DNA of 64,000 bases, from positions 12,728,184-12,792,183 of the forward strand of contig OZ038471.1 of NCBI GenBank assembly GCA_964036295.1, read 5' to 3'. Below the pieces are notes generated by a model. That model saw only the letters and a program-made list of their open reading frames with translations, had not been told where the DNA came from and ran no database searches. Both the position numbers and the translations under genes were made by a program. This document shows, one piece after another, positions 13,443 through 61,941 of the stretch; position 1 is the first letter of the stretch; every line of letters starts with the position of its first letter. Origin of the DNA: Plumapathes pennacea (Eukaryota > Cnidaria > Anthozoa > Antipatharia > Myriopathidae).

Positions 13443-16400
13443 GTAAGGGATATTCAAGACAGTTCTGTTGGTCATGTATACTTCCACGTACAGTATAACT
13501 TCTTCGTCCTTCTTCTCGATTATTTAACGACGAACTGATCAAAGCTTATGCAATCATTTCTAACTAGGCCTCGTTTTACCAGAATGGAAACAGGCATCTC
13601 AGAAATGGCCTACTTAGTAGCTATGACATGGGTAGTTGCCATAGAAGAATTTTTAGATAAAATTTCATTGATTGTCCCCTTAACGCAGTCTTCAAAACTG
13701 CCATTAAGTGTGTGACAGCAATACTTCAAATTTTCTGCGTTTGATGCCCATGACCCGCTCAACAGAATCGTTATTTTACGTTCTAGAATGCAATCAAGCT
13801 CTTGGAATGCAGCAGGGAAAAATAGAAAACGAAGCAATCACCGCTTCTTCCTGGAAAGACGATGATCACAAACCTCAATTTGCCAGACTGAACATCAGGA
13901 AGGCCTGGTGCTCACGGAACGAGACGTCGCCGTATTTACAGATATCTCTGAGTGAAGTTTACAAGATCACGGGTATTGAAACCCAAGGAAGCTTGAGCGA
14001 CAGGCGGTGGGTGACTAAGTACGAGATTCATTACACCACAAATACAAGTGGATGGGAAGTTTACCAGGTAGATTAAAACTATATCAGCTGTGTTTCGCAG
14101 CAAAGCTGTTACGATGTTGTGTTGACGTTGGGAACCCCTGTGGTCCACTTAAGCTATAATATCACTGAAAATATTTTTTCCAAGTTAAATCGAATTACAT
14201 CATATTATTGCTGAATGATAGCTGCAATGTTCCTCAAAGTTTCATAGAAATTGCATAAAAGCCAAAAAAGTTATGATCCAAAGTTTGTCATGGACGACTG
14301 CGCCCGATGAAACTCCGGAGTCACCTAAAACCAGTCTTTTAATCTAGAAACTCTCAAGTATTCATCTAAAATAATCATTTTCTAACTCATTTTTGGTAAG
14401 TTGATAAAGGACTTTAAATTAAATAACTTAATGAAGGGATTAGCACGTAATCACGTAATATCAGACTATAGGTGACAGCAATAAAACGCAGGAAGCTAGT
14501 ATTGATTCTAATCGCAAAAACAAACAAACAAACATAAGTAGAAAAAAAAACCGTCATGCATAACACTTTTTTTTTATTCACCGGTCATAACAGGCTTCAA
14601 ATGGAAAGACAGTCTTCCAAGGGAACAGCCATTTTGCTAGATCTTCAAGAAACGATTTTGGTATTCCACTCATGGCCAATGCGATTCGGATCTATCCAAA
14701 AAAAACGATGGCTCTTTTTGGAGGAGCGAAACGTGCGTGTCTTAGGGTGGAGATTTATGGCTGCAAACTCGAGTCAGGTGAGTGACGTCATGATTTTAGT
14801 TTTGAACCCATGCATACAGAACAAAAACAACCCGATAACTACAAGAGAGACATTTTGTGATAGTGACACCACAAAATGCAATAAGTAACGCAAAATTTAA
14901 ACAGCAAAGTAACGCAAAAGGTGGCATAGTCAGACGATCTCTCCAACGGATTTGATTTTGCTGTGAGGGAGATGAGTTGAAAAAGGTGTCTTAACAAACA
15001 AGTAACTAGAAATACGATATTCGCAGAGGCCCCACGCCCAAGTAATCGGTTTTGTATGACATTGCTAGAGCTCTCATGTACTCTATGCTTTCACCACACA
15101 TCTCAATATTATCCTCGAGCAAAGCGAGGGTAATAATCACGATGCTAATGGAGCAAAATCGTCTTGTTTGGAGACTCCAAGCGGGTCACCATCTTGAAAT
15201 TTAATGTTCGTCTGTCAGTCAGTCTGGCAGTTGAGCAGTACCAAAGTAATTTCTAGTATAACGTAATTAAAGGCGGACGACACTATATTAGCATTTACAT
15301 GATATTGGCATGTGTCCCATTTCGGGGAGTACTCATCATAATTTTGGGTGGGGGTGTGCCGCCTGAAGCTGAAAACCTCTTACCCTATTTCAAACCAAAA
15401 TATCTGATTTACTATACCCTATTTCAGACCAGACTCCAAAATGTATACCCTATTTAAGACCTATTTTAGAGATATATTTCTTTTGCAACCATTTCTGCCC
15501 TGTTTTTTTTCCATTTGCCATGCACTGTCCACTGCGACACATTTCTATTAAAATCATACCCTATCCCAGGCCAAAAACACAAAATCTATACCCTACTTCA
15601 GACTAAAAATGTTTGAAACAATATTCTTTGGGGCAGCACATACCTATATGGCATAGTACTCTGCCTGAAAATAGCCGTACCCAAATGCTTGATGTGTTAC
15701 CAGCGGGACCCCCGTAAAGTACGAAGGGTTGTGTTTTGCAAATGCTCGATTATAGATACCGCTTCAACCAATGTATCTGTGTTCTGAGCAATATTTGTGT
15801 GAAAGAACATCGAATAAGTAGTAGAAGACGTGTCGAAACTTGATAGAACTTGAACTTTTCCCTGCGGGCAGAGCGTCTCCCTTTGTCGGAAACTCTGCGG
15901 CTTTGTGTAACGCGCGGCGTATACGAACAGTCGGCGTTTAACTTCGTTTTGCGTGCAGTAAAGGTTCTTTGTTTATTGTCTGAGGATATTGAATTACTAA
16001 TAGGATTGAGGCAAATATCACGCGAGATTAAGATACAAGATCTGTCAATGAAATGTCACGAGCATAATATCATAGAACGGGGAATCCCGAATCATCAGCT
16101 ACTTAGCTTTCACTCACGCCGCTTTAACAAAAGCAGGAAAGACCTGCAGGCGATTACATCGAGAATATTTGTCACTGAATACCTCGAAGTCTTCAAGGTT
16201 GATATCCGACTATCCGAGCCGTAATGTTCGCTCCACAAGCCCGTGATGCACGCCTTTGTTGTCACGGTATTCAAACGTCTGCAGCTTCCGATAGAGATTA
16301 ATTTCGTATCGACCCAGAATTTTGCGTTAAAGCTTAATGCATAGCAGTCTTGAACATATTAGTGATCAGACTTGTACATGTAGGATGCGTAACGTCTGAG

Positions 16401-19400
16401 ATGGCTTTTTCATACGAAGTAATTTCATCATGGGAAGTGTCATGTTTTAGGCCCCGTCCACACTACGCCGGATAAATTTGAAAACGCAACTTTATTCTTA
16501 CGGTTAGGAAAACGCTCTTCAAAGTGGATAAAATTTGAAAGCGCCGGCTTTGCGTTTTGGTGTGGACGAAAAACATTTTGAAAACGGAACTTTTCGAAAA
16601 CCCTGACTCACGTGGCCACGTCAAGTGGTTTCAAAGTTTGTCAGGGACGTTTGTAGAGCAATAACAATACATTTGGGCCCGGAAACATTTTATCCGTTTT
16701 CCAGTGTGGACGGAAAACATTTCTTGCGTTTTCAGAGTGAAAGTTGCGTTTTCAAATTTATCCGGCGTAGTGTGGACGGGGCCTTAATGTGCTACAGCTA
16801 CTTGAACATGATGCACACGCTGGGAAGATGAGATAAGGCTATTACGCTGTCTTACAGCTACTTAAGATGTCGGGTATTCCCCAGTCAATCCCATTACAAA
16901 ATGACAACACAGTTCCTCCACAAAACATGTCAGCTTGAAAATTCACTCAACAAGGTTGCCAGGTTGTATAGAAAGCGTCACACTAGTACTGTCACGTGCA
17001 TCGGAAAGCAATGAAAACTGGGTTGTTGCAAACGAAGAATATTCCTACGGGGCCTTCGATAATTGTTTTCTCTCAATTATTATAATACACTTTTTCGTGA
17101 ATATCTGTTTGACCAAAATTAGAAGAAAAGAGGGCAAGAAAAATAAAGGGAGCTCTTGGATCCGTCATTTGCAAAAACTGACTCGGCTATAATATCTTTT
17201 GCATATAAACGCACGACAAAAGTTCCTCTCCCGGGACCCCGCGTGTCTCTATTCATTGTACTAATGACGTCACAAGCGCACTGGCCACGGGCCTGTCTTG
17301 TTCATTGGTAAAATACTGTATATTAAATACTTCTCATGTACCTGTAGGTTACATTATACTTCTCAGGAGTTCTCAGTTGTTGCATGTGTTGCCTAGTACA
17401 TGTACAAACACAAAATTCCATGCCAGAGAAATATAGCCCTAACCCTACACTCTTCTGTGAGTGAAAATGAAAAAGTGCACTATAAATATTCAATATTTTT
17501 ACAGAATATTAGACAAATGAGAGTCAGGTTCGCACGTTATCCAGCACTGTAAGATGCTGTGAGACATGAGAAGAACATCAGTTTAGTACTGTATTGAAAT
17601 TCTTATCTTAAAGTCTCATTTCCCATGTCATGTGGGTATAAAGTAACTCTTCCTAATCACAGAAAGATACTTTTTCCAGTTGGACTTCGTGAACTTCGTG
17701 TTTGTCTTGATATTTAGAGACCTATGAAAAACAAAACAAGCATCAAAGTCTAGAATTAAAAAAGTGTGTTCTGTGGCTGGAGATAGATGGGTGGGTGGGG
17801 AAGCAGATTGTGTTGGAGTAACAGTTTAGACAAATCTCACCAGAAATAAATGTCATGCAGCTGCATGGAAAAAAACTAATGTTCAAAAGAAAACTTTATA
17901 AAATATCATTACTAATATTCTATTTGGGAAAAGGAAGAAATTTATGCTAGCTAGTAAAGTGCTGGCTTAAGTAAAATGAAACTAACTGTGGTAAATGCAA
18001 ATTGACTTGTTTGGCTGTTATAATTATGTATCTTTGCAAATGATTTTTGACCTTAATAGTACTGAAGGCATTGACTTGTCAGAGTTATTATCTAATTGAA
18101 CTTGTTTAGATCATGGCATTTTTTTTCTGCCCATACCAGCTAAACACAGAAATCTCTTCTGAACATTACTTTATACACAGTAATGTATAAAATACAGCTA
18201 AACTGCTAATTTAAAAATGCAAAAGGAAATGCAGCAATAAATTTACATTCTTTTCCTGATGCCAAATTTACAAAATAATCATTCATAACAATATCTAGTT
18301 TACCAAACATCATTCTGTTTATTTGTATATACATTTCATAATAGTGTATATACTATAATTTATAGCAAAGGGAAGGGGGGCGGTAAGGTGAAGAAGTATA
18401 TGCAAACAAAGACTGTATTGTTATGGAAAGTAGTGGCCAGGTTTTGGAAAGTTTAGCCCAGCATAAAAAACACAGTTCAAATAACATTTGACTTATAGTA
18501 CTTATACAGTGTTATACAGTACATGATAAAAACAGCCAAGCAGTTAAAAAAAAAAAAAAAAAAAAAAAAACCAAAACTCACAAAGTTTTTGCACTGTATA
18601 ATTCACAGAGGACAAATATTTTGATCTGTTCTTTGATAAACTGAAATGGTTTCTAGTGCTGCAATTTTAATAAACACATTTCTCTCTAATCAAATGCACA
18701 GAAACGCCAAATTCTTCTGTGTGAGTGATATATATGCTGTGATTTTGTCTACAAAGCAAACTGTCAAGTCTCAAATTAACCTCTGCACTGTATGACACTG
18801 GAAGTTGATTTAACTGTCAAGACTCAAACGGTCAAAACAGTTTTCTGTCGTGGAAATTTATAGCATCACAACAACAAAATTTTATCGCGGCCGCAAAATG
18901 TCCGATAAGCTCGAAGCAATGCATAACGGACGAGTTGAGTGAACAAAGTAAATAGACGTGTCTTACCTGCCCTTGGAGCTATCGGCTGGCCTTCAAGCAC
19001 TATTTTACATGTAGCTTATCTTCAGTCCTCCTGCTGTTCAACGGGTTGTCAGGGTTAGCCCATCCACGGCTAGGCAGATGTTGTTGCCTCTGGAAGCGCC
19101 GTTCTTCGACAGAAACCCTTCGACAAGAGACAAACGTTGCTCACGGCGTCGATTGTTGGCCTCATTTTGAGCATGAAGCCTACGGGCTGTTTCTCCGGAC
19201 GTTTCATTGTGGCGTCGGGAAGCAGCTTGTTCTCGATCAGCTTTCATGCGCTGTTCTCTTTCCTGAGCTGTTTGGCTTGGGCTCGCTTCTGCATATGATG
19301 CTCCGGGCGGCTGTAGTGCGCTGTTCTCTTTCCTGGTTTGTCTCCTGAGCTCGTTTCTGCTTGTGCTCTCGGTCACGCCGCTTGTCTCACGAGTTCGTCT

Positions 19401-22400
19401 TAGTATGTCTTGCTCTCTTCGTTTTTGAAGACGAACTTGTTTCTTCTCGTGAGAGTGTTCCGTTTGATTCTTTGTTTGATTCATACACTACGTAGTTCGG
19501 CAAGAGTGCAAAAACTCATTCAATCTCCTGTCGTGTCCGGACTACCAGAACACCACGTGATCAAAAGTCGGTCCGTGAAATACAGACATTTCAACATGAG
19601 ATTCCGGGTTGAGGTCAGGAGAGGAAAGAGCCTGGGAACGATGTTAGAGATTCTGTTCCGATGTTTTTTACCCAGGAAACCCCGCGTAGCGGGGACGTGA
19701 TTCTGTTCCGATGTTTTACCCAGCAAGCCCCGCTGCGCGGGGAGGTCGGTCCGTGAAATACAGACATTTCAAAACGACATGGTGTTCAGATTAGTACCCA
19801 CGCAGGGCGTGGGAATTATACTTCTTTTCTAAACCTTTATACGGTCAGCAACATCTAAGAAAAAAAGTTGTTTTGAAATGAACTGAAAAAGTATTGTTCA
19901 GTTTTTACAGTACAAGGTGTTTTGGGTCTTGTTTCTATAGAGCGGTCAACTGAACCTCGTGAGCAGTGCGACCTGTTGAGCTCGCTGATTCACAGAACGC
20001 TTAAAATTAGACCATTTATTGCTGTGTATTGAGTAGGTATAAAGGACATTTCACAGGAATAACAAAACTCTTCGAAACAACACGCATCAGTCTTCATGTA
20101 GGAGTCTGGTGGTTCGATTTCGGCGCAGTCACAGCGCACAGTGGCGAATGAGAGCTCAGTGGGCTGTAGGACAATGTATTTTCAACAATTAGCATCCTCA
20201 ATTACCAGTTATTCAGTTCGACCAAACATCATTCTTCGATTTGTTGATTTTTGCGCCCTTTACAAAAACTTAAGTATTTCATCAAACACCTTAAACGCAT
20301 GTGAACCATTAAAATCAGTAGTGCAATTTCATACACAACTGGCACTCTGCACTTCTTCTACCTATAACGAGTTATGCAGCAACAGTCATGTGTACAGCAG
20401 TTTAGTCTGCTGCGACCAGTTGGGTTCAGTCTCGCAGATATGCAACGGTGCATGATAAACGGTAAGCTTTAAACTAAGTTGTTTCTGGACCTAATGTTAC
20501 CGCAGGGTATAGGCATTCTCGTATATCGGGCAAGACGACGGCAGACCGGTCACACTTGTGTCAGATTTCTTTCTTTCCCATTTCTTTCTTGTCGCTACAA
20601 TAGCTTTTGGTCTGATTTTTCCATATGGTAGCCTATAAATCTCTTGCATTTATTTAGTCTTAAGTTTTCTTGTTCTCAAGTTTTGTTGAATCATCACCGT
20701 TTCTAAAAAACTCGCGTAACACAATTTCACGGTTTAGACGGGCATGAAAAGCATTCCGAGGGCGATCCAAGAATTGTTCCAAATCGGTTTGATGATATCT
20801 CAGTTGTGATCGTAAGTAACGTTACGTTTGTGCCTATCCCTACTTCAGTGGGTGTGGGCGCGTTGACAGTTCAAACATTATGCGTTCTGCGTAAAAAGTA
20901 AGACATTTTTGCATGAGACAACTTCGATATAAATTCAGTTTACTGCGTTCTTCTGTGATTAATCTAATATGAAATGTCCAAGCACATGCGTTTCGGAGAA
21001 AGATTAACACAAACGTTAGGTCGATATACTCAGAAGTAGTCAAGTGCTGATCTTTGTTCCGATCTTTCTTTGTTGTTGCCTGTAAATTCATACAAAGCGC
21101 TAGTCCCGAAAAGGAACAACTGTCATATTCAATACTGATCGGCCAAGTCTGTGAAAATAACGTCAGCTTATCAGTCCAGAATCAAGGGATCACTTACTTG
21201 TAACGCAAAATGACCCCGTATATTCTTTCCGGCAAGCACACTCAATTTGCAAGACATTTTCTTCCGCGGCTCACACTGCACGCTATAGACGTTCTCCAAA
21301 ATCTAATTTGGTGACCCAGTCAGTCAAACTTAGCCCGTCCAGCTGATCTTGTCTTGACAAAGTAACAGGCAATTCATTTTAAACGTCGCGTATCTGTATA
21401 CTTTACAGTGCACGACTCGATCCTGCCTCGAACGTCATGTAGTTCGTTTTCTTGCATGGAACACTGGAAAATTGCTTACATTCGTTGTAAAATTAATTGA
21501 GACTTTAGGACGAAAGCTAAATTTTTAGTAGATTGTGGATTCTGCACGGCGGTAAATTAACAAATTGACGTTTCATGATCAATAAGAGGACAGACACATA
21601 AAAAACTGACGTCAATTTGTTTTTTACAATAACAAAACTCAAGCGACGACGCGGGGAAAACACGCAAGAAAACTGGATTTTGTTCGATTTGACCGAAATG
21701 TTGTCAACAACTTTTCCCGCTTTCTAATTGGCCGAGGTTGAAATTCAAGACATTTCATTGGCCAAAAAGTGACAGTTTGACGTGAGCATTTCGCGCGTGT
21801 AAAATAAAATTTTGTCAAAGAAGTTGGAAAGAAATGAAACTAGACGCTTTTCTGCTGCGGTTTTCTCGACAATTTCAAGACAAAGCTCAAGGAAATTCGC
21901 CTCTGAACACTTCTGGTTCTCTACTTCAAATGCCGAATGTCGCTTTTGCAAGAACTGAGGTAAAATTGAAGCTGAATTCACCTTCTTCGTCCAAATCACT
22001 GTCGTCAGCACTCGATTTTATGTGTCTGTCCTCTTATTGATAATGAAAATTAGCCAATCACAAAGCGAGAAACTGACGTGTTATTGTAAAATCAACGTTC
22101 GAGCCGCTACTGGTACTCCATTAGTTCAGCTTGCAGGGAAAGGTTCTTTTGAATTGACCTTGTCATCCGCCATTATTTTCCGTAACAAACCAACCCTTGG
22201 GAGTAGGCTAAGGCAGCTTTTGCTGGCTAAGTCGCCGATAAATTGCATCTAAATTGAGCAGATTCTAAACAGCGACGATTTCTCGGCGACAAATCGCCAC
22301 AAAATTGCCACGAAATTGCAGGTAGTTCACAATTGCGGTTTGGAATCGCATCGAAAATCACCCCTTAAATTTTACCATCTGCATCAAAAATTACCTGTGT

Positions 22401-24443
22401 AAACCGGCCTTAATGTGCTTTATGTAGTACCATCCTACAAGAAGCACGAGAAAATGAAAACCGCAGGAGAACAGGGAGGGCCAGAACCGCATACCTCTTT
22501 CACTGTATGACAAAAAGTCGTATTTATATCGGAATTTACTTTTTTATTTCACAGAATATTACTTCAGTCGGTCTGACTCGGTAATCCTCAGCGGGCACCC
22601 TGATTACGATCAAAAGCTGAACGAATACCTGGAACCTGTGCAAGTGAGTGGTAAGCAGTGGAAGTTGTGTTTCAGGGCTTCTGAGCATAACTACAGTGCT
22701 GCTGCTTTCCACACTTCTTGCAACAAGAAAGGTGTAACATTTACCCTGGTTCGAGTTGGAATCTACGTATTTGGTGGCTACGCAGACAAGAGCTGGGATG
22801 CGCCGAGTGATGGACAAACAAGTGAGTATGGTCCAGATATTAATCCCCGAACGAAGTGAGGGAAATACTCACGACACTAATGCAGTAATATTATACCGCC
22901 TACTTGGGGACTCCAAGCCTGTCGCCATCTCGAAATTTAACGCTGTCTGTCAGTCAGTCAGTCAGTCAGTCAGTTTGTCAGTCAGTCTGTCGTACGACTT
23001 TAGGCGCGGTTACCCCGCTAACCAATAACAAAGGCCGGATCGATCACGTGTGCCCTGTTGTTTTACTCGGAATAACTTAGAGAAATTAGATTTGAACGAA
23101 GCATTTAGATTTGAACGAAGCAACAATATATCGTAGCTGCGTTCACGAAAATGGAAAACTTAACTGAAAAACTTGAAACACAGCAGTCTCGCGAAGCTCC
23201 TCTTCAAATGAGAAGGGAACAGGCACGAGCAAGGCGAAATCGTGAAACGAGCGAATAACAGCGCATGAATGCCAATCAAAAGCGACATGAACAGAAGCGG
23301 GTAACGCAGACAATTCCGCAAAGAGAACAGCGCTTGAACGCAAATCGGAAACTTCAGGAGAAAAAGCGGGCCGAAGAGAAGACTCCGCAAAGACAACAGC
23401 GCATGAATGCCGACCAAAAGCGACATGAACAGAAGTGGGTAACACAGACAACTCCGCAAAGGGAACAGCGCTTGAAAGCAAATCGGGAGCTTCAGACGCC
23501 GTTTTGTGTTAAACTCAGATACTTATTTAGAAAGGACAAGCAACAAAGGTTAGTCAGTGGAAATCGAACAATCACCGTGACAAATATATTCTATCCCGTA
23601 TAGCTTGTAACTCGATCACTTCAAGAATGTATTAAAATCTGTATGCTGATCATTTTCCCTCGAAGTATTGTTTTACTACGCTTCTGTCGCCAGTTTCGGC
23701 TACCGTATTCGCTCAGAGCAATCGGAACTTGGAGTCTTGAATGATTTAGTCAGATGTCTTATTTTTCTGTAATCTGACAACGCGGTGATTGCAGCGAGAA
23801 TCGTTCACAAGCCCTTAGAAGTATTACTGGGTCTGAAGCCCGTGTATAATTTGAAGTAAACTGTTCAAGTTTTGCTTTGATTCTGGGAGAAATCTTGCTG
23901 TTTTGAGTGGGTTCACATACAAAACAATTCGAGCTCATTAAATATGCATGCCTGAGTCTGGTGCATGCAGTAGTAAAAACAAATCGCACAGGAAGCCTAT
24001 TTAATTGTACTGCCTATGAATTCAAAATTGGAAAATCAGTGTTCCTTTTTTCCCGTACTACGACGGCCGACCAACTTCAAACTTTGAGTATTAAATTTCG
24101 AGAACGTGCTTGGCAGACTGTATGAATTAATTTGACGTGCCGACCGTGGGAAATACGTACTTCGTCACGCAATCGATTCTTTTTTCAACGCTAAAGTATA
24201 ACACACACCATTCTTTTTCTCCTTCCTTTGCGTGTAGCACTTGAGTTCGAAGAAAAGATTGAGTCAACATTTCGGTAAAACAAAGGCTACTCTTGTTGGG
24301 AGTTACCAAAGTAAAAGTCCCATCAATGGCAGAGTGAGGGGGTATCTGCGATTATCGTATTTCTAGTATACAATATACAGGACAGTAGGTGGATACAGTA
24401 AGTCATGAAATGTACCTTACCTCCCGGGTAAACGTTATATATG

Positions 24444-38324: not shown

Positions 38325-38549
38325 AGGTCGCGAGAGAAAAGAGCCTGGGAACGAGGTTAGAGTGTTCTACCCAGCAAACCCCGCGCGTGATTCTGTTCCG
38401 AGTTTCTACCCAGCAGACCCCGCTGCGCGGGGACGTGATTCTCTTCCGATGTTTTTCCCAGCAAACCCCGCTGCGCGGGGAGGTCGCCCGTGAACGAAAA
38501 ACATTAAAAAACGACATGGTGTTCAGATTAGTACCCACGCAGGGTGTGG
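38325..38549. repeat. W hairpin repeat (copy 2)
   Basis: Three units with CCCAGCAAACCCCGC-type sequence. Perfect hairpins CCCCGCTGCGCGGGG lie at 38418-38432 and 38466-38480, and CCCACGCAGGGTGTGGG closes the block at 38533-38549. It is closely similar to 19600-19813. Confidence 0.7.
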
Positions 38550-38918
38550 GAAAAAGCTCTGGTGACAGGAAATTTATATATTTTTAAGTAGCTACATTTT
38601 ACAGTAAGACGATTGACTGTATTGAAAAGATGCTAAACATATTTAGTGTAAAGGAAAATGGATCCTCGTTGAATTTCCTACTTGAAAGGGAATACAGTAT
38701 TCACGTATGCCAAGTCTGGTACCGGGCTGCAGCTGTTTAGCGGCGGAAATTCGCCGTGACGGCAAGTTTCATTCACGGATTTTTCTTATAGGACTTGCTT
38801 ATAACACCTGATATTTTAATGAATCGAATAGTAATTCATACAGCTTGCAAATAGCCGTGTTATGGCGGCGACAACTGTTCATGTGACGTCAGACGGAGAT
38901 TGCTCAACATTACATCAG

Positions 38919-41860: not shown

Positions 41861-42897
41861 TCTTAAGAGCCGTTGTCTGAGAAAACCGGGCAGGGTCAAA
41901 AGATGGGGGTTGGCCGAATTTTATAAAATTACCAGTACTTGATGTCTATCTAGTATGATTATGAACGGTGGCATTTGAACGAATTTTGGGTCTTTTGTTT
42001 CGGAGATTGACCACCCCCCTTGGTTTTGGAACCGCGGGAGCCAAAATGGCGTCCGAAATTAGACCAACTTCGAGACGAAAAAATACCAACATCCCGACGG
42101 ATTTTACCAGCGAGCTTTTTCACACTGTTTCCATGGGTATATTTCCCCTAGATTACAGTTTCAAATTCAAATTTTATCAGCGCTTCCTTTTTGGCGAACG
42201 GCTTGAAACAGTAGAGGTCAAACAAAAATCCGACATGTCAGATTTTTAACGTTTTTGAACGCTCTTTTCTCAAAAGTGCGGTTGTTTATTTTTCATTTAA
42301 GACCTGATTTTGGTATTCCATTGCCATCTAAACCAAATTAAAAAAAGAATTGATTGGGGGAAAAAGCCGTTCCCGTTTGACTCACATTTGAAGTTGCTCC
42401 AAATTGCGGTTAGAGAAGTTTTCCCGCCAAATTAATTCTACTTTATACTGTACCACAAAAGCAGTCGCTTCCCCGTAAAACTACTCCAAGAGACATTTTA
42501 TTGCACAAATACAGTATTCGCAACTATATTCGGCAAATCAACGGCTGTTATGTCATTCTTCGGTCTAAATACTCAAAATAGTTTTCCCGCCAAATTTCTC
42601 TTATGCTACAATGTGCCACAAAAGCCGCTGCGTTCTCCATAAAAACCACTCCAGAAGACACTTCATTGAATAAATGCAGTAATCACATTCCATTTTGGCA
42701 AATCAAGGGCTTTGTGGGTCTTTTTATTTGATGTAAATACTCAAAATATCTTGGAAATTGATCCGCGTATGATGTCACGCTCACGCCTACGTTTCGTGTC
42801 ACGCTTACGACCACCATATTTACGATTGTTTAACTGGGCTTCTCGTGTGTGTGAAACGTGTTTTTGATAAATAAAGTATCGTTGCATGCGGTGACAA
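41861..42897. repeat. left terminal inverted repeat
   Basis: Begins TCTTAAGAGCCG. Open frames inside it (for example 41968-42249) are mirrored in the right arm and show no domain. Confidence 0.75.
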
Positions 42898-46581: not shown

Positions 46582-47629
46582 GTTTCACACACACTATACG
46601 CATACACATACACATACACATACATATACACGAAAAGTAGGAGAAGAAGTCCAGTTAAACAATCGTAAATATGGTGGTCGTAAGCGTGACACGAAACGTA
46701 GGCGTGAGCGTGACACCATACGCGGATCAATTTCCACGATATTTTGAGTATTTACATCAAATAAAAAGACCCACAAAGCCCTTGATTTGCCAAAATGGAA
46801 TGTGATTACTGCATTTATTCAATGAAGTGTCTTCTGGAGTGGTTTTTATGGAGAACAGAGCGGCTTTTGTGGCACATTGTAGCATAAGAGAAATTTGGCG
46901 GGAAAACTATTTTGAGTATTTAGACCGAAGAATGACGTTAATAGGCGTTGGTTTGCCAAATATAGTTGCGAATACTGTATTTGTGTAATAAAATGTCTTT
47001 TGGAGTAGCTTTATGGGGAACCGATCGCTATTGTGGTACAGTATAATGTAAAATTAATTTGGCGGGAAAACGTCTCTAACCGCAATTTGGAGCAACTTCA
47101 AATGTGAGTCAAGCGGGAACGGCTTTTTCCCCCAATCAATTCTTTTTTTAATTTAGTTTAGATGGCAATGGACTACCAAAATCAGGTCTTAAATGAAAAA
47201 TAAACAACCGCACTTTTGAGAAAAGAGCGTTCAAAAACGTTAAAAATCTGACATGTCTGGATTTTTGTTTGACCTTTACTGTTTCAAGCCGCTTGCCAAA
47301 AAGGAAGCACTGATAAAATCTGAATTTGAAACTGTAATCTAGGGGAAATGTACTCATGGAGATAGTGTGGAAAAGCTCGCTGGTAAAATCCGTCGGGATG
47401 TTGGTAATTTTTTGTCTCGAAGTCGGTCTAATTTCGGACGCCATTTTGGCTCCCGCGGTTCCAAAACCAAGGGGGGTGGTCAATCTCCGAAACAAAAGAC
47501 CCAAAATTCGTTCAAATGCCACCGTTCATAATCATACTAGATAGACATCAAGTGCTGGTAATTTTATGTAATTCGACCGACCCCCATCTTTTGACCCTGC
47601 CCGGTTTTCTCAGACAACGGCTCTTAAGA
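46540..47629. repeat. right terminal inverted repeat
   Basis: Inverted copy of 41861-42897. It ends GGCTCTTAAGA and differs mainly by small substitutions and the CACATA expansion. Confidence 0.75.
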
Positions 47630-49979: not shown

Positions 49980-51810
49980 CGACACTAGATAACATAGGGT
50001 TGTGACTAAACTGGATACTCCAAAATCAGGTTTCCGAGAGGAAACTGGGACCGAATCAAAAATTAAATTCTCGTCAGCTCGGACCGTGTTCCGAAAACAG
50101 TACGACAGTGACGTTGATGTTTTGAAAGTTTGTTTGGCGCGCATTAGCAAGTCCGCTCGGCTGGCCGCGTCGCGCCGCCTGTGTTCCTTTTTACGCGGAC
50201 GTGGAGGTCAATTCCAAATAAAACTGAAGCGGCTCAAGACATGAGTAGAAACTGTAACCAGTCAACACCAGATACACAAAGAAGCATTGTAGTCGTGAGC
50301 GTGAAAAGGACAATATTACTGTTTATTTGTAAAATTTCGGGTCAGCCGGCCATTTGCTCGAGAACACAGTGGTTTTGGATGAAAATAACTTATCTATATA
50401 AGCATCCTAATACAGTAAATACGGATAAATATCTACATATTTTTAGAATACGTTGGAAATCTGATCCGTCTATAACTGTTGGCTTCTATGGGCTTCATTA
50501 TTATTCCTATTTACTTATCATTCCTGTGGTGATTTTTGACAGTTCGCACCTTCACGCGGAATGCTTAATCTTGATTGCATGTCTTATCGTGAATGCGTTC
50601 GTCTTTTGGAGTTAAGACTGATCAAGAAACACAGGATCGTACACAAGCCGTTTCAATCGCTCTCCGGAACAGTTCACGCGGTGGGATTTTTTTATCTTCG
50701 GTGTCAATATTCATCTGTGCCAGATCAGCCAGAACAAGCCTTTCTTCTTTAGTATTTTCTCCCCAAGCTAATTTTTTCTTTCTAAAACCTTTCCAGTGCC
50801 GAATTTTATTTGACTGTCTTCCGGTGTTAGATGCTTCTGTGTTAGTCGTCCGGAGCCGTTTACGAACATTGTTGACAAAAAAACGACCTCGGTTCGTCTG
50901 AAGCATCTAACACCGGAAGACAGTCAAATAAAATTCGGCACTGGAAAGGTTTTAGAAGGAAAAAATTAGCTTGGGGAGAAAATACTTACAGTCTTAACTC
51001 CAGAAGACGAACGCATTCACGATAAGACATGCAATCAAGATTTAAGCATTCCGCGTGAAGGTGCGAACTGTCAAAAATCACCACAGGAATGATAAGTAAA
51101 TAGGAATAATAATGAAGCCCATAGAAGCCAACAGTTATAGACGGATCAGATTCCCAACGTATTCTAAAAATATGTAGATATTTATCCGTATTTACCGTAT
51201 TAGGATGCTTATATAGATAAGTTATTTTCATCCAAAACCACTGTGTTCTCGAGCAAATGGCCGGCTGACCCGAAATTTTACAAATAAACAGTAATATTGT
51301 CCTTTTCACGTTCACGACTACAATGCTTCTTGTGTGTATCTGGTGTTGACTGGTTACAGTTTCTACTCATGTCTTGAGCCGCTTCAGTTTTATTTGGAAT
51401 TGACCTCCACGTCCGCGTAAAAAGGAACACAGGCGGCGCGACGCGGCCAGCCGAACGGACTTGCTAATGCGCGCCAAACAAACTTTCAAAACATCAACGT
51501 CACTGTCGTACTGTTTTCGGAACAAGGTCCGAGCTGACGAAAATTTAATTTTTGATTCGGTCCCAGTTTCCTCTCGGAAACCTGATTTTGGAGTATCCAG
51601 TTTAGTCACAACCGATAACATAGGGTGGAGGACCCCTGAGTTTTCGGAATATTTCCGACTTTACGATGACGTCACACGAAGTCACAATTCGGATGTGGCT
51701 CGCATGTCCGCCATCTTGTTTTTCCGAATTGTGGTTTCGTGTGACGTCATCGTAAAGTCGGAAATATTCCGAAAACTCAGGGGTCCTCCACCCTATGTTA
51801 TCTAGTGTCG
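49980..51810. mobile_element. 1.83-kb foldback element
   Basis: The left arm (49980-50849) and right arm (50898-51810) are long inverted copies sharing CGACACTAGATAACATAGGG at the outside and AGCATCTAACACCGGAAGAC near the centre. The left arm has about 128 bp (50621-50748) absent from the right. The right arm has a 191-bp palindrome (51612-51802) of which the left keeps only one end. A minus-strand frame at 50622-50906 is open across the centre but unrecognised. Confidence 0.7.
51612..51802. repeat. 191-bp near-perfect palindrome
   Basis: Arms of about 86 bp begin GATAACATAGGGTGGAGG and contain TGACGTCA-like sequence, with a loop of about 28 bases around 51700. It is nested at the outer end of the foldback's right arm. 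Confidence 0.75.
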
Positions 51811-52006
51811 ACCACACGAAACGGCCGTGAGATCGTGACAAGCTCGCCTCGGCCGCCATGTTGGTTAGACTTGACGTCATGACCGCTGACAGCAAATTTT
51901 CAATTTCGGCTCACATGATTTTGGTGGGTGTTAAATAGTGCCTTCCGTATTGTATTTCACGGACCGACTTTTGATCACGTGGTGTTCTGGTAGTACGTTG
52001 CGAAGG

Positions 52007-54278
52007 AGGAAGGCACTGGAAGGGATAGATGAGACGGCCCTCGTCCGAGGAGGACTGGGCGACACTGAAACCGATCGGGCCGATGATTCTCGGCAAATAT
52101 TCGGTGAACACTATGGCGGATACGCACTTTTGTTGTTTTGAGAGAAATATCCGTGTCGCCAGACTATGTCCGCTTTCCAAGATGCACAAGGTCCCAAATA
52201 CTTGCTTATTTAAGTCGACTCAATATTCAATTACGTCTCAACGAAAGAACAGAAGACGGAAATTCTGAGTTATTCGAGCAAATAACGAGTATTTCGTATT
52301 TACTGGAATGGAACCCCTGTTTCAACCGTGTTGTATTGTTTTTTTTATTAGAGTAACAAACAAAAACGTTAAACCAAGGGCTGTTTCACCGTAAGGGACC
52401 TCTGATCTATCCCTTTTGGTGTTACAAAATATGAAGGGATAGACCAGAGGGACTACTTCCGGTAGCAGTTAAATTCAAGATCTCTTCACCTCAGTGATCG
52501 AATACAGACCTGTCGTGACAAGACACCGTGTAGACAAATGAAGATCAACGCCAGGCACTAGAGCAAGGACATTTATTTTCAAGTAAACATTGTATCAGGC
52601 AATCATTATAGCGAAATTGTTTTCAATTGCTACTTTGACAAAGTGGAGAAACAGATGCCTTAGCGGTTTTTTTTATTGCTGAAATAATATCTGTAGAGCA
52701 TCATCCAGATCACAAGAGGCCACGGAGAAGCAGTTACAAGCTGCGTAAGCCAGACGAGAAAATTTTGAATACACCTGTGGAACTGACTGATGCTATATTA
52801 CTGTTAGTCAAAACATTCTTCATGACATGTTCCCTCAAGTGGAAGGCCTCCAAGACACCACCCTGGGCCCTCTTCTCGACTTTTCTGTACATGGTAGAGA
52901 ATTTGTCCAAGTTCTTCACACTGGTAGACCCCACTGGGTCACAGTCAGCAACATTGGCTGCCAGAGGGGGGAGGTAAACTACTTTAACAATTTATCTAAT
53001 GATGCCCAAGCGGCACCTTTTTTTGTACAGAAGCGAGTAGCTTCCATGCTTCAGGAGAAGAGCTCCCAAATCAAGCTGGTGGTCCAACCAGTGCAGCAAC
53101 AAAGTAACTCTGTTGATTGTGGTCTTTTTGCAATTGCATTTATGACATCTCTTCTGCACAGTGAAAACCCTTGTGATATACTGTACTGTATGATGAGTCC
53201 TCACTGAGGCCTCATCTGAGAGATTCCCTGATCTCTGGCACCCTACAACCCTTTCCAAAGGCTGGAGTAAGGCGTGGCACTAACGTCCATAGCACTCACC
53301 GCCGATGCAGGAAGAAAATTGTTGCTGTGGACCTGATATGTTTGTGCTGTCTGCCATGGGATAAGAAAGACAGGGTGGACCCACTCATGTGGTGTGCCCA
53401 GTGTGACTTCTGTTCAGAATGGTACCACAAGAAATGCATGCCATCCATCCCTGACAGCATCTTCCATGGGAGTACCTTTTGGGCTTGCAGCCAATGTAAT
53501 CAATCTTAGAAAATTGTGAGAAGTTGACTACCGCCCTGCCAAATAAACAGCAATACCATGATTTAACTCTACATCAGGTTACTTTGCCAAATGAAAATAG
53601 CTGCCACGCGTTTAGTAAACCAGGTTTTCATAAAATTTAGTTCTTGTTAATTGGAGAAAAAAAAATTGACAACACCCCACAATTATGCCAGCCTTTAAAA
53701 TCAGCTAGTTGCTGTTATGTCAAATTGAATGATTATAAAAGAAAGATTATAAATAGTTCAGTTACTTTCATGTAAAAGATCCCAGTTTGTTTATTATATA
53801 GTTATATCAAAATATTCACCATAGTGGTCTGCTGATCTTCTGATGTCTTTGATGTCTATTTTTATAATAGTTTAACGTGTGCCCCGTTGAAAGCATTGCA
53901 ATAGGATCTGTGTATTACGAAGAAGTTCAGTCCCTCTGATCTATCCCTTTTCGTTACACCGGAAGGGATAGATCAGAGGTCCCGTCTCATCATTTCTCCC
54001 TGGTGAAACGTAAAAGAATATCTGAATAAAGAAGTATTTCTCACCTGAACATGGTTTGTGCGAAGTATGCGCGTTATTTCCCGTTGTTCCCGATTCTGTC
54101 CTTTCTCGGAAACCCGACACAGTCTGGCGACACGGATATTTCTCTCAAAACAACAAAAGTCCGTATCCGCCATAGTGTTCACCGAATATTTGCCGAGAAT
54201 CATCGGACCGATCGCTGTCGGTGTCACCCAGTCCTCCTCGGACAAGGGCCATCTCATCTATCCCTTCCAGTGCCTTCC
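52007..54278 (+). mobile_element. Ulp1-PHD transposon, insertion 1 in Y, 8-bp target duplication
   Basis: Inverted ends of about 170 bp start AGGAAGGCACTGGAAGGG and are flanked by TGCGAAGG at 51999-52006 and 54279-54286. The motif AAGGGATAGATCAGA or its complement occurs six times, near 52019, 52403, 52434, 53937, 53962 and 54252. An 8-bp duplication is typical of hAT and P elements, but no such transposase is present, so the element is non-autonomous or new. Confidence 0.65.
52700..53510 (+). pseudogene. Ulp1-like (C48) cysteine protease with C-terminal PHD finger
   Basis: The protease part reads MFPQVEGLQDTTLG, FVQVLHTGRPHWVTVSNI (His), FNNL where the family usually has an Asp, QQQSNSVDCGLFAIAF (Gln and catalytic Cys). 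The PHD finger from about 53330 has all eight ligands in the order CLC, WCAQC, WYHKKC, WACSQC. The frame changes near 52786 and 53197, and the N terminus is missing. Ulp1-like proteases cleave SUMO-type proteins, and several transposon families carry them. Asp to Asn suggests loss of activity. Confidence 0.65.
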
Positions 54279-54345
54279 TGCGAAGGAACGGACACGACAG
54301 GAGATTGAATGAGTTTTTGCACTCTTGCCGAACTACGTAGTGAAT

Positions 54346-54795
54346 ATGAATCAAGCAAAGAATCAAACGGAACACTCTCACGAGGAGAAACAAGTTCGTC
54401 TTCAAAAACGAAGAGAGCAAGACAGACTAAGACGAACTCGTGAGACAAGCGGCGTGACCGAGAGCGTTACAAGCAGAAACGAGCTCAGGAGACAAACCAG
54501 GAAAGAGAACGGCGCACTACACCCGCCCGGAGCATCATATGCAGAAGCGAGCCCAAGCCAAACAGCTCAGGAAAGAGAACAGCGCATGAAAGCCGATCGA
54601 GAACAAGCTGCTTCCCGACGCTACAATGAAACGTCCAGAGAAACAGCCCGTAGGCTTCATGCTCAAAATGAGGCCAACAATCGACGCCGTGAGCAACGTT
54701 TGTCTCTTGTCGAAGGGTTTCTGTCGGAGAACGGCGCTTCCAGAGGCAACAACATCTGCCTAGCCGTGGATGGGCTAACCGTGACAACCCGTTGA
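54346..54795 (+). CDS. Arg/Glu/Gln-rich ORF of Y element, copy B (149 aa)
   Basis: Intact frame from MNQAKNQTEHSHEEKQVRLQ to LAVDGLTVTTR. Against copy A there are about ten replacements and one extra codon, and no stop or frameshift. About 70 bp after the stop a GTAAGA donor-like site is shared by both copies. Coiled-coil or helical character is likely. No enzyme domain, function unknown. Confidence 0.5.
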   Translation: MNQAKNQTEHSHEEKQVRLQKRREQDRLRRTRETSGVTESVTSRNELRRQTRKENGALHPPGASYAEASPSQTAQEREQRMKADREQAASRRYNETSRETARRLHAQNEANNRRREQRLSLVEGFLSENGASRGNNICLAVDGLTVTTR

Positions 54796-55024
54796 ACAGC
54801 ACGAGGACTGAAGATAAGCTACATGTAAAATAGTGCTTGAAGGCCAGCCGATAGCTCCAAGGGCAGGTAAGACACGTCTATTTACTTTTGTTCAGTCAAC
54901 TCGTCCGTTATGCATTGCTTCGAGTTTATCAGACATTTTGCGGCCGCGATAAAACTTTGTTGTTGTGATGCTATAAATTTTTACGACAGAAAACTGTTTT
55001 GACCGTTTGAGTCTTGACAGTTAA

Positions 55025-57805
55025 AGGGTCATTCCACAGTATTCCGCCGTCGCGGAGACGACATTCATTTAACTCTGCCATAGCTAGAAAGATAAATTGC
55101 ACAGGAAATTCATTCTACTTTGATATGATAGATGTCCATTAGAGCTATTCATAGCAGTGTTGTAATTCACTTCTGCATTACAAAGGTTTGATAATAATTA
55201 AATAGCCGTCGCGGAGACGACACAAAAAATCCCTCATTTTGAAAGCGCAGACTTTAAATCCGAAATGCTCTGAATCTGAAATGAATTCGAAAAGACTTCT
55301 TGATTCAAGTTAGCAGGTACTCTCCTAGTTTATTAAAATGACATTAGGATTTTGTTGAATACCTTTGGTCCAATAAATATTCAGCAATTCTGAACACTGT
55401 TCCTGTCGCGGAGACGACGTTAGGTACCATCAATACAATCACAGCAAAATGAAACAATTTGAACAACATATCAACTTGAAATAGCATATGCACCTCATAG
55501 ATGCATAATCAATATTTAATAGCAACAAAATATCAACACTGCAGAAGTGTCCCACAAGAAGACTAACTTAGGTGTACCCATCAAAATATCTATTAAACTA
55601 TCTTCTCTGATGACAAAAAATGGCAAAAAATGCAACAGCTTCTAAACCTGTTCATGTATATGCAGACTCCAAAAGAGTTCAATCAAATTGTACATGTGTT
55701 CAAACTGGGCGTATGATCGCCAATACTAATTAGCTTGGTATTTGAACTACCTCAGCTGTACTAATAAAGTACATGTACAATGGCTGGCTGCTCTGACTGA
55801 GTTAATGGCCCCTTTTACTAATTGAATGGAAAATAGATTGCAATTCCTTAAGATCTGAAATCTCAAATGGGCCATTGCCCCGCAATCCCACAGGGCCATA
55901 GAAAACACAGGTGGAATGTACATGGTCAACATCGTCACGCCTTGGCCAGTCAAATTTATCAGCACCCACTCTGTGCAGAAACTTGAATTGTGTAAAGTTC
56001 CCATCATCAGATGTGGCCAGTGCTCTGCCAATGTAAAATTGATTGACATAATCGACGGCATAATAATCCTCTGCCTTGATGGGGTCAGGAGGGATTGAGT
56101 GCAAGGCTTACTTATGCAGCTCAAGAACCATATACTTCCTGAAGTCAGGAATGCTGCTTGGCTGAACCATGACATCTCCCGTCACAAGACACCTGGCATA
56201 CAGGCAAACAAACACACCACAGTCCCAGCCATTATCTTGTTGTGGGATGTCACCTGGCTTGTTGGCGAGAAATCTCCACTGGCTGATGTCAAGGCTAGGA
56301 TCAATCCAACCTTTATTTCAAATTCTTGGGTGAAGATTTCATACATCTCTGAGATGTTGAGAAGCAAGAGTCTCTTTTGCAGATGCTTTCTGCCTGTGGC
56401 TGTCTTGACAGATATGAAATCTTTCCTCCCAGGACACATTCTGCTGATGTCATCTCTTACATAATTCCTCAATTTTCTTTACCCCTTCATTTGACAACAC
56501 ATCTGATCTTTTCTTCCTGTCAATGCCTTCTACTTTTCTTTTCTTCACTGACTGATCACACACTTGAAGAACTGCTCTTCTTTTTCTGGGGACATTCCCT
56601 CTACTACCCTTGCAATAACATGGGACACCTTACTTGGACTTTGTGGTAAGCTCTTTTTCACTCTTCTAACTGCCTTTCCAAAACTTTGAGGACTTTTGAA
56701 ATCTCCAGCAATGCATTTCTTGGCAGATCTATTAGCCATACTTGAGCTTTCAGCTTTCTTTCTCACTCTGTAGCATCTTTGGCTCTCCGTTTTCTTCCTC
56801 CTTAACAGTGCCTTCTCATTTACAGACATTTTAGATTTAGAATTGGCATACTGGTTTGCCTTCCTCTCTCTATCTTTTCTCCTATAGGCTTCCAGTTTTC
56901 TCTCATCACTTTTCAACTTCTCTCTAAATCTCCTAGTCCTTTCAGCACTGCTAGACATACTCACTACAGACAGAATTTAAATTGTGGACCATGCCTTACA
57001 GACCTTTCAAAGCTTGTATGCTAAATAGCTACTCACAATTCATTGGGAATATGAACTGCACATGCTCAGAACCTTGTTAGTTCCAGTCTTCTATATGCTG
57101 GCCAAGTACATTAGGACTGGTGCTTTGGTTTAAATAACCACACAGAATGCACTGATTTCTACCATAAGCTACCCTGCTTCAGGAAAAGCCATAAATAAAA
57201 GAAAATTTTGAGTTTGGTAATAATATGTCACATTTTCAGTTTATCTTGATTGGAATTGTAGTCTCCGCGACAGAAATGTCGTCTCCACGACAGAAAATGA
57301 ATACTAGATTTCACCCTGACAATAAAAAATTCAGAATGTTTTGATATGGCACAACTTACCCCTGGTTGTTAATTAGAACTTATAAAACTTTGAACCAAAT
57401 CTGATTATCTAGTCAGCTGTGATAAAAACTTTGAGGTCCAAAAACGTCACGGAGACAACACTTTGCAAATGGAATGCCCATAACTCATAGCTAAGATACA
57501 AAATCCATTTTGAAACAGCAGTTTTAAAATAAGGGCCAGTGGCACATCATGTCCACAGGCCTTTTTCAGAATTTTATGTTTTCATTCTCTTTTTAAGCAA
57601 CAAATTGTTTGTCGTCTCCGCGACAGTCATTTCACCTTTTTCTATAATTAATTCTAATTTATGCAACATTGCCACTATGGAGTTGCGAACCATTGTTGAA
57701 AAAGTAAACTTCAGACTCTTATCTACACTTTCCTGGCCAATTTAGGGTTATTTGTGAAAATTTAGAATCTGATGTTGAGGTACCAAAATACTGTGGAATG
57801 ACCCT
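55025..57805 (-). mobile_element. K element, insertion 2 in Y, with repeated GTCGCGGAGACGAC sites
   Basis: Perfect 19-bp inverted ends AGGGTCATTCCACAGTATT. Copy A has the empty site (18809-18815 region, CAGTTAAATCAAC on the complementary strand). The target fits TTAA with one base changed. Subterminal motifs:
- direct copies at 55049, 55208 and 55405;
- reverse copy at 57611;
- one-mismatch reverse copies at 57258 and 57278;
- a weaker direct one at 57446.
It carries a split minus-strand gene. Confidence 0.75.
55802..56964 (-). pseudogene. K-element protein, internally deleted
   Basis: Three minus-strand pieces:
- 56964-56545: basic N terminus, MSMSSSAERTRRFREKLKSD and FGKAVRRVKKSLPQSPSK.
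- 56472-56182: YVRDDISRMCPGRKDFISVK, LLLLNISEMYEIFTQEF.
- 56104-55802: C-terminal YYAVDYVNQFYIGRALATS and FLHRVGADKFDWPRRDD.
The style matches a multicopy transposon-linked protein family of marine invertebrates. From recall, that family has several hundred more residues between the second and third pieces. These are absent here. Confidence 0.5.
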
Positions 57806-58019
57806 AAAATCAACTTCCAGTGTTATACAGTGCAGAGGTTAATTTGCGACTTGACAACAGTTGCTTTATAGACAAAATCACAACATATATATCACTCACA
57901 CAGAAGAATTTAGCGTTTCTGTGCATTTAATTAGAGAGAACTGTTTATTAAAATTGCAGCACTAGAAACCATTTCCGTTTATCAAAGAACCTAGGTAGAA
58001 ATCTTATTAAGATTCCTAA

Positions 58020-58410
58020 TAAGAATCTTGCAAGAATCTTGCAAGAAAGTTTTGTAAGATCTTACAAAAAGACTTGCAAGAATCTTGCAAGAAACTTGCA
58101 AGAAACTTGCAAGAATCTTGCAAGAATCTTGCAAGAAACTTGCAAGAAACTTGCAAGAAACTTGCAAGAAACTTACAAGAAACTTACAAGAAACTTGCAA
58201 GAAAAGTGCAAGAAACTTGCAAGAAACTTACAAGAAACTTGCAAGAAAAGTGCAAGAAACTTGCAAGAAACTTACAAGAAACTTGTAAGAAAAGTGCAAG
58301 AAACTTACAAGAAAAGCGCAAGAAACTTACAAGAAAAGTGCAAGAAACTTGCAAGAAAAGTGCAAGAAACTTGCAAGAAAAGTGCAAGAAACTTGCAAGA
58401 AAACTTGCAC
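58020..58410. repeat. 11-bp tandem array (AAACTTGCAAG)
   Basis: More than 30 units of AAACTTGCAAG with variants (CTTACAAG, AAGTGCAAG). The core CTTGCAAG is palindromic. Confidence 0.9.
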
Positions 58411-59014
58411 AACAGATCTCCGTCTGTACGAACCATCGCGAAACTTCGAACCGTTAAAATTTTGACCGTCGAAATTCCTGCGTCCTGATACGCCAATGTA
58501 TAACATGTGACCACATGCACCCGAACGAGTGCATGCGACGACATCACGTCGAGTAGATTTTGCATGCGTGTTCGAAGATCGTATGCCTTCGGGAGTCGAA
58601 TTCACCACTTCTTTCGCGAGCTTTGTTATCAAGGCGGATGATTATGCTTTTCTTTGGACGCTAATTCGAGAGGAACGCCGAAAATGTGCCTGAATCGTGT
58701 GGATTTCGTTGTTGAAATTACGACTGCAAATTCAAAGCTTAATTGTGGTGACACCTAGCGTCCTTCATATCTCATTTGCTAATACATGCATCAATTCTAG
58801 TTTAATGTTTAATTCCCTGTCCCTGTATTTCTGTGCAGTATGCCACAAGCATAGGCTAAACCGCAGAATTAAATTGAAAACAATGATTTTTTTTGTGATT
58901 TAAGTCGTTGTTCTACAAAGCACACAGTAGTGGTGGGGTAGTCTGATGCTACCTGGGGGATCTTACAAGATCTTGCCAAGATGTTGGACATGGGTAGATC
59001 TGGGTCATGCAATG

Positions 59015-59565
59015 TTAAGATTCTTATAGAAATCTTGCAAGATCTTATCAAGAAACTTGTAAGAATCTTATTTTGACTGTTCCAAGATCTTATCAAGATT
59101 CTTATAAGAAGATCTGGGTTACTGTTAAGATTCTTATTGAAATCTTGCAAGATCTTATCAAGAAACTTGTAAGAATCTTATTTTGACTGTTCCAAGATCT
59201 TATCAAGATTCTTGTGAAAAGATCTGGGTTAATGTTAAGATTCTTGTAGAAATCTTGCAAGATCTTATCAAGAAACTTGTAAGAGTCTTATTTTGACAGT
59301 TCCAAGATCTTATAAAGATTCTTGTAAGAAGGGACTCTGGGTAATGTTAAGATTCTTATAGAAATCTTGCAAGATCTTATCAAGAAACTTGTAAGATTCT
59401 TATTTGAGAGTCTATCAGAAGGTTTATTAAGATTCTTGTAAGAAGGTCACCTCTTGTTAAGATTCTTATAGGAATATTGTAAGATCTTATCAACAAACTT
59501 ATAAGATTTTATTAAAGGGTCTGTTGTAAGATCTTATTAAGTTTCTTGTAAGATGTGTTAAGAAA
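59015..59565. repeat. 110-bp tandem satellite
   Basis: Units start TTAAGATTCTTATAGAAATC at 59015, 59125, 59235, 59347 and 59457, a period of 110-112 bp. They share the CTTGCAAG core with the left array. Confidence 0.85.
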
Positions 59566-59726
59566 ACAAGTAAGATCTTATAAGATTTCAAATCTTATTA
59601 AGATTTATGTAAGAAATAAGGATCTTATAAGATCTTAATAAGATTTCTACCTGGGAACAGATCAAAATATTTGTCCTCTGTGAAATCATACAGTGCAAAA
59701 TCTTTGTGAGTTTTGGTTTAAATAGG

Positions 59727-59730
<4 letters not shown>

Positions 59731-59759
<29 letters not shown>
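59731..59759. repeat. poly(T) tract inside Y
   Basis: Counterpart of the poly(A) run at 18547-18570 in the inverted copy A. Confidence 0.8.
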
Positions 59760-59762
<3 letters not shown>

Positions 59763-61189
59763 TGCTCGGCTGTTTTTATCATGTACTGTATAACACTGTA
59801 TAAGTACTATAAGTCAAGTGTTATTTGATCTGTGTTTTTTATGCTGGGCTAAACTTTCCAAAACCCGCCCACTACTTTCCATAACAATACAGTCTTTGTT
59901 TGCATATACTTCTTCACCTTACCGCCCCCCTTCCCTTTGCTATAAATTATAGTATATACACTATTATAAAATGTATATACAAACAAACAGAATGATGTGT
60001 GGTAAACTAGATATTGTTATGAATGATTATTTTGTCAATTTGACATCAGGAAAAGAATGTAAATTTATTGCTGCATTTCCTTTTGCATTTTTAAATTAGC
60101 AGTTTAGCTTTATTTTATACATTACTGTGTATAAAGTAATGTTTAGAAGAGATTTCTGTGTTTAGCTGGTATGGGCAGAAAAAATGCCATGATCTAAACA
60201 AGTTCAATTAGATAATAACCCTGACAAGTCAATGCCTTCAGTGGACTATTAAGGTAAAAAATCATTTGCAAAGATACATAATTATAACAGCCAAACAAGT
60301 CAATTTGCATTTACCACAGTTAGTTTCATTTTACTTAAGCCAGCACTTTACTAGCATAAATTTCTTCCGTTTCCCAAATAGAATATTTGTAATGGTATTT
60401 TATCAAGTTTTCTTTTGAACATTAGTTTTTTTCCATGCAGCTGCATGACATTAATTTCTGGTGAGATTTGTCTAAACTGTTACCGGCCCAACACAATCTG
60501 CTCCCACCCACCCATCTATCTCCAGCCACAGAACACACTTTTATAATTCTAAACTTTGATGCTTGTTTTGTTTTTCATAGGTCTCTAAATATCAAGACAA
60601 ACATGAAGTTCACTAAGTCCAACTGGAAAAAGTATCTTTCTGTGATCAGGAAGAGTTAGTTTATACCCACATGACATGGGAAATGAGACTTAGATTAAGA
60701 TAAGATTGTCAATACAGTACTAAACTGATGTTCTTCTCATGTCTCACAGCATCTTACAGTGCTGGATAATGTGCGAACCTGACTCTCATTTGTCTAATAT
60801 TCTGTAAAAATATTGAATATTTATAGTGCACTTTTTCATTTTTACTCACAGAAGAGTATAGGGTTAGGGCTATATTTCTCTGGCATAGGATTTTGTGTTT
60901 GTACATGTACTAAGTCAGCACATGCAACAATATTGAGAACTTCTGAGAAGTATAATGTAACCTACAGGTACATGAGAAGTATTTAATATACAGTATTTTA
61001 CCAATGAATTAGTAAAAAGGCTGACTCTATACTATCTCATGAGACAAAATAAATATTACTGTGAAATGGACATGGCATGATGAAATATTGTGAGAACTTC
61101 CTTCTTTCAAGACTACCTTACATATTATATAATAAGATTACGGTACTCTTCAAACAGCAATGGGACCCTGGGGGTAGACCCTGGCAGAG

Positions 61190-61876
61190 TACTATGCCAT
61201 ATAGGTATGTGCTGCCCCAAAGAATATTGTTTCAAACATTTTTAATCTGAAATAGGGTATAGATTTTGCCTTTTTGGTCTGAAGTAGGGTAGCAATTTTG
61301 TGTTTTTGGCCTGGGATAGGGTATGATTTTAATAGAAATGTGTCGCAGTGGACAATGCATGGCAAATGGAAAAAAAAAACAGGGCAGAAATGGTTGCAAA
61401 AGAAATATATCTCTAAAATAGGTCTTAAATAGGGTATACATTTTGGAGTCTGGTCTGAAATAGCTAGGGTATAGTAAATCAGATATTTTGGTTTGAAATA
61501 GGGTAAGAGGTTTTGAGCTTCAGGCGGCACACCCCCACCCAAAATTATGATGAGTACTCCCCGAAATGGGACACATGCCAATATCATGTAAATGCTAATA
61601 TAGTGTCATCCACCTTTAATTACATTATACTACAAATATGATAATCGCAGATACCCCCTCGCTCTGGCGACTATTACTTTGGTACTGCTCAACTGCCAGA
61701 CTGACTGACAGACGAACAATAAATTTCGAGATGGCGACCCGCTTGGAGTCTCCAAACAAGGCGATTTTGCTGTATTAGCGTTGTGATTGTTACCCTCGCT
61801 TTGCTCGGGGATAATATCGAGATGTGTGGTGAAAGCATACAGTACATGAGAGCTCTAGCAATGTCATACAAAACCG

Positions 61877-61878
<2 letters not shown>
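61190..61878 (-). repeat. composite repeat block, inverted duplicate of 15043-15665
   Basis: Reverse complement matches 15043-15665 along its whole length, including the R-family element (61190-61562), the spacer and the Helitron-like insert. Confidence 0.75.
61630..61811 (-). mobile_element. short Helitron-like element (copy 3)
   Basis: On the minus strand it starts TCCCCGAGCAAAGCGAGGG and ends ATATTTGTAG, between A and T. The final CTAG is GTAG here. Confidence 0.5.

Positions 61879-61941
<63 letters not shown>
61878..61941. repeat. (TTA)n microsatellite
   Basis: About 21 uninterrupted TTA units directly at the edge of the composite repeat. Confidence 0.95.

Follow-up and report, generated by a model that had tools for sequence, protein, structure and literature searches.

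Canonical Helitrons are described in the relevant sections of PMC3627910 as having the ends TC...CTAG. For Helitron2 the same sections put a 5'-ATIR within 0-2 bp of the 5' end, inside a 5' hairpin, and for Helitron2/Helentron elements they put a 3'-ATIR some 20-30 bp short of the 3' end. The window analyzed here, a stretch of 64,000 nucleotides of Plumapathes pennacea DNA, contains two copies, A and B, of a dispersed repeat which we call Y. Y has ends laid out as published for Helitron2/Helentron, which makes a non-autonomous element of the Helitron2/HINE type its most likely identity. Copy B is interrupted by three other elements, and its features are as follows (TIR-bounded elements and arrays are given without strand where none was assigned):

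51951 to 61880, plus strand: Y copy B with three insertions, Helitron2/HINE-like, missing about 230 bp at the 5' tip and 37 bp at the 3' tip
51999 to 52007, plus strand: left 9-bp target duplication of insert 1, TGCGAAGGA
52008 to 54278, plus strand: insert 1, Mutator-like, with TIRs of about 176 bp that are 93% alike
52827 to 53207, plus strand: Peptidase_C48 frame in insert 1, E 5.5e-05, above the cutoff
53327 to 53509, plus strand: PHD-finger frame in insert 1, a weak match, E 0.0054, below the cutoff
54279 to 54287, plus strand: right 9-bp target duplication of insert 1, a copy of TGCGAAGGA
54325 to 54795, plus strand: 156-aa frame in Y, rich in Arg/Glu repeats
55022 to 55025, plus strand: left 4-bp target duplication of insert 2, TAAA
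55026 to 57804, minus strand: insert 2, a TIR element (GGGTCATTCCACAGTATT) with its frames on the minus strand
57805 to 57808, plus strand: right 4-bp target duplication of insert 2, TAAA
57988 to 57989, plus strand: left 2-bp target duplication of insert 3, AA
57990 to 59655: insert 3, unclassified and bounded by TIRs (CCYAGGTAGAAATCTTATTAAGAT), its interior filled with tandem repeats of 11 bp and 110 bp
59656 to 59657, plus strand: right 2-bp target duplication of insert 3, AA
61877 to 61941: (ATT)n array in place of the last 37 bp of Y in B

The preliminary description of the window had defined the three insertions by comparing B with A, and it had predicted gaps at 52007-54278, 55025-57805 and 57991-59654. 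Pairwise alignment of 51951-61008 with the reverse complement of 17301-19584 gave four colinear blocks separated by three gaps, as expected, and blastn bore out that A and B lie on opposite strands. The blocks pair B 51951-51994 with A 19584-19541 (44 bp, 100% identity), B 54289-55025 with A 19539-18809 (96.9%), B 57807-57990 with A 18811-18628 (92.5%) and B 59655-61008 with A 18631-17301 (94.3%). Three of these matches are far beyond chance: the two long ones (94-97%) have a printed E value of 0.0 and the 186-bp match has an E value of 3e-72. Placing the insert ends by inverted repeats and target duplications refined the boundaries to 52008-54278, 55026-57804 and 57990-59655, at most one base off the predicted gaps at all six ends. 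After subtraction of the inserts about 2.3 kb of B remain, again as claimed. The layout with three insertions in one copy of Y is confirmed, and the data support the claim that they are independent insertions whose ends can be found by comparison. The word "nested" does not fit, as the inserts sit side by side in Y and none lies within another. As a whole, the preliminary interpretation is only partly supported.

To find relatives of Y and of the inserts the genome was searched (290 Mb, 24 contigs); copy counts from these searches are lower bounds because only the best candidates were scored. The duplication flanking insert 1 is 9 bp long in seven of nine copies, including that in B, and 11 bp in one; one copy has none. 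A target duplication of about 9 bp is that of Mutator-like elements. Insert 1 is internally deleted when compared with a 6.3-kb relative (G000:C6:18049598-18055886; L041, L089, L046), which also has a 9-bp duplication and shows matches to SWIM, C48 and ALS2CR8. In two scanned frames of this relative ALS2CR8 and SWIM scored above the cutoff and the ZSWIM1-3 RNaseH-like domain below it (E 0.024); no match to a MULE transposase domain was listed for these two frames. Insert 1 itself carries remnants of a C48 protease.

Insert 2 is a deleted relative of a 4.6-kb element (G000:C3:6139958-6144669) with an unbroken frame of 988 aa (L091:852-3818), which comprises an integrase-like core and a C-terminal SENP-like protease. 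A named relative, at 57% identity to this protein, comes from Acropora cervicornis. In a fold comparison for this family one domain filled the listed matches, and the lack of a cut-and-paste transposase entry among the best 50 listed rules nothing out. A Pfam scan of the four insert 2 frames in B led nowhere. The duplication is 4 bp in seven of eight copies, including B, with one copy lacking it; 4 bp is also the target duplication length of Sola2. When the insert is removed, B retains one extra A at site 2 relative to other copies.

For insert 3 a 2-bp duplication was found in six of seven copies, B among them, and one copy is without duplication; in B the duplication is also readable as 4-bp GAAC. 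The tandem arrays of this insert, with 11-bp and 110-bp units, lie at 58021-58409 and 59011-59553 of the window. The frames of a 4-kb relative led nowhere, and the one scanned with Pfam gave no match.

The insertion sites were then compared in 30 other Y loci, a set that excludes A, B and repeat retrievals of a locus. Of these, 29 read through without inserts at sites 2 and 3, and one (L006) gave no match. Site 1 could be matched in 18 loci, none of which contains insert 1, and gave no match in the other 12. Among the 18 comparable loci, 12 carry the palindrome CCGTTGCGAAGCAACGG or a near variant at this site and 6 carry the short form found in A (5 spanning, 1 partial). These comparisons bear on the idea that the inserts are old parts of Y which A-like copies lost by precise excision. 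Although excision is possible for cut-and-paste elements, inserts 2 and 3 are absent from 29 of 30 other loci with the target single there, and the inserts are private to B among the loci examined, so that we consider this history exceedingly improbable. An assembly error that joined unrelated repeats into one apparent Y copy might be suspected in a region as full of repeats and tandem arrays as that of B. Each insert is, however, bounded by inverted repeats that recur elsewhere, its flanking duplication has the length mostly seen in its other copies, and Y continues at the very next base after each insert; we regard such an error as very unlikely. Three separate insertions into B are the preferred explanation.

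Copy A had been introduced as an insertion-free control. Its features are these:

15006 to 19814, minus strand: Y copy A, with both true ends present, interrupted by repeat W
15666 to 17302 (approximate): repeat W, which takes the place of about 0.18 kb of Y; related sequences occur in L016, L033, L053 and L055
16449 to 16784: small transposon in W, TIR GGCCCCGTCCACACTACGCC, bounds approximate to a few bases

Copy A is not free of insertions, since beyond 17301 repeat W interrupts it and Y picks up again at 15665. As an empty site, A is a good control for sites 2 and 3 and not for site 1, because A has the short form and insert 1 of B sits in the palindrome. Site 1 in A reads GGTAGTCCGGACACG, a form that lacks 13 bp precisely where insert 1 went in; the use of A as a general empty-site control was rejected for this reason. 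The difference at this site does not set the two copies far apart as a whole: elsewhere the nearest relatives of B are in A's group (94-97%).

The small transposon in W has TAA on both sides, outside its bounds, and a single TAA is present at the uninterrupted site in L055. PIF/Harbinger-like elements make a 3-bp TAA target duplication, which is what was found here, in one copy only. Because W holds a small transposon of its own, the two-level nesting truly lies in A and not in B. W also borders a Y copy in L033, there at another position within Y.

An element of 2.3 kb ending at 17301 and 19584, as implied by the preliminary description, was rejected, as other copies run past both points. The segment 17301-19584 is only the middle of Y, and most copies that keep both ends measure 3.1-3.4 kb. 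The true 5' end in A is at 19814, where a T directly precedes TCCCACGCCC (in general, T before TCCCACGCCCTGCGTGGG), and the true 3' end is at 15006, where CTAG is followed by T. Position 61880 of B pairs with position 15043 of A. Genome-wide, 270 exact 5' ends and 157 exact 3' ends of Y were found, compared with 0 for a reversed control pattern. Both A and B belong to this dispersed family, and A is no special partner of B. Among the 100 listed 5' ends and 69 listed 3' ends on C1-C3 there are at least 44 end pairs within 15 kb, 28 of which span 3,094-3,446 bp. A T precedes all 26 distinct 5' ends and follows six of seven matched 3' ends.

A Pfam scan of the Arg/Glu-rich 156-aa frame of Y gave no match, and a tRNA scan found none. 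The longest paired Y copy (on C2, 11.7 kb) was considered as an autonomous partner and rejected, since the 8 kb that were read consist of Y pieces split by other sequence and contain a single frame of at least 120 aa.

Some further repeats were noted. In L035, at about 2789-2830, two Y copies stand head to tail, with just one T between the 3' end of the first and the 5' end of the second. A different repeat with nearly the 3' terminal sequence of Y (CTGCGATTATCGTATTTCTAG) occurs at 24339-24367 of the window and in L033 and L047, and the same tail is found inverted within Y in L004 and L014. At 38389-38552 of the window there is a fragment with an 88% match to the Y 5' end. Two segments of the window of about 985 bp each, 41861-42843 and 46645-47629, form an inverted pair (95.5% identity), as do two of about 625 bp, 49998-50620 and 50989-51613 (98.6% identity), the latter just upstream of B.

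The assignment of Y was based on the following terminal features. The 5'-ATIR, TCCCACGCCCTGCGTGGG, stands at the very end of the element, and the 5' hairpin has a predicted energy of -8.4 kcal/mol (z -4.45). At the other end the 3'-ATIR, GGGCGTGGG, is followed by 25 nt ending in CTAG; the 3' hairpin, a stem of four pairs, is weak (z -0.96). A classification of Y as canonical Helitron (Helitron1), or as an element of another type, seems rather unlikely to us. The weak 3' hairpin would speak for it, as would the ends TC...CTAG, which Y shares with the canonical Helitrons of PMC3627910, but in the text of that paper Helitron2 is set apart from Helitron1 by the 5' hairpin and by an inverted repeat that the 5' end has in common with a point lying 25 nt before the 3' end. 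We therefore retain Helitron2/HINE as the most likely class, and the ends of Y suggest that it may move by a rolling-circle mechanism.

Taken together, the comparisons make it highly probable that Y is a dispersed non-autonomous Helitron2/Helentron (HINE) element moved by a partner, that B is an old copy, now without its tips, into which three cut-and-paste transposons inserted independently, and that A is another member broken by a different repeat. The ends, the duplications, the relatives and the sites left uninterrupted in other copies are observed directly, and the mode of movement of Y and of the inserts is deduced from them. In this sequence of events Y would have been moved by the proteins of an autonomous partner, and B would have lost both of its tips. 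Insert 1, a Mutator-like element, would have jumped into the short palindrome of Y in B, producing a 9-bp duplication. Insert 2 would be a deletion derivative of an integrase-fold transposon that produced a 4-bp duplication, and insert 3 an unclassified inverted-repeat element with a duplication of 2 bp. Copy A would belong to the palindrome-less group of Y and would have been broken by W.

Every part of this locus falls into a known kind of element, in some cases as an unclassified member. The cluster illustrates cleanly how many paralogous copies allow host element and insert to be told apart, and it is a warning that a single nearby copy is unsafe as an empty-site control. The only part of possible interest to the transposon specialist is the presence of SUMO-protease domains in two of the insert families. 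One could speculate, and we consider it a long shot, that the families to which inserts 1 and 2 belong, DNA transposons without relation to each other, separately acquired SENP/Ulp1-type proteases, and that the family of insert 2, with an integrase-fold enzyme fused to a SENP-like protease and with 4-bp duplications, may be an undescribed superfamily which may use SUMO removal for its own movement or for escape from silencing.

Compared with known systems, insert 1 is a candidate member of the cnidarian subgroup of the Ghost clade of Mutator-like elements: its TIRs measure about 176 bp, compared with 177 bp in the table of PMC6446971, its 9-bp duplication has the usual length for MULEs, and its longer relative has a SWIM finger. 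The longer relative differs in its C48 protease, which the pertinent parts of PMC6446971 do not list for Ghost. Insert 2 may be akin to Sola2 as characterized in the corresponding part of PMC3627910, with which it shares a 4-bp target duplication and short inverted repeats; its long relative differs in its C-terminal SENP-like protease. Y shares with the Helitron2/Helentron, HINE and DINE-1 elements of PMC3627910 and PMC4067079, as far as the relevant passages describe them, a terminal 5' inverted repeat folded in a hairpin, a T adjoining both ends and a high number of copies. With Helitron2 (PMC3627910) it has in common that the 5' end recurs in inverted form near the 3' end, in Y at a distance of 25 nt. 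Unlike Helitron2/Helentron elements in these accounts, Y has a weak 3' stem-loop and the terminus CTAG. In its layout Y comes close to the Helentrons and HINEs presented in PMC4067079.
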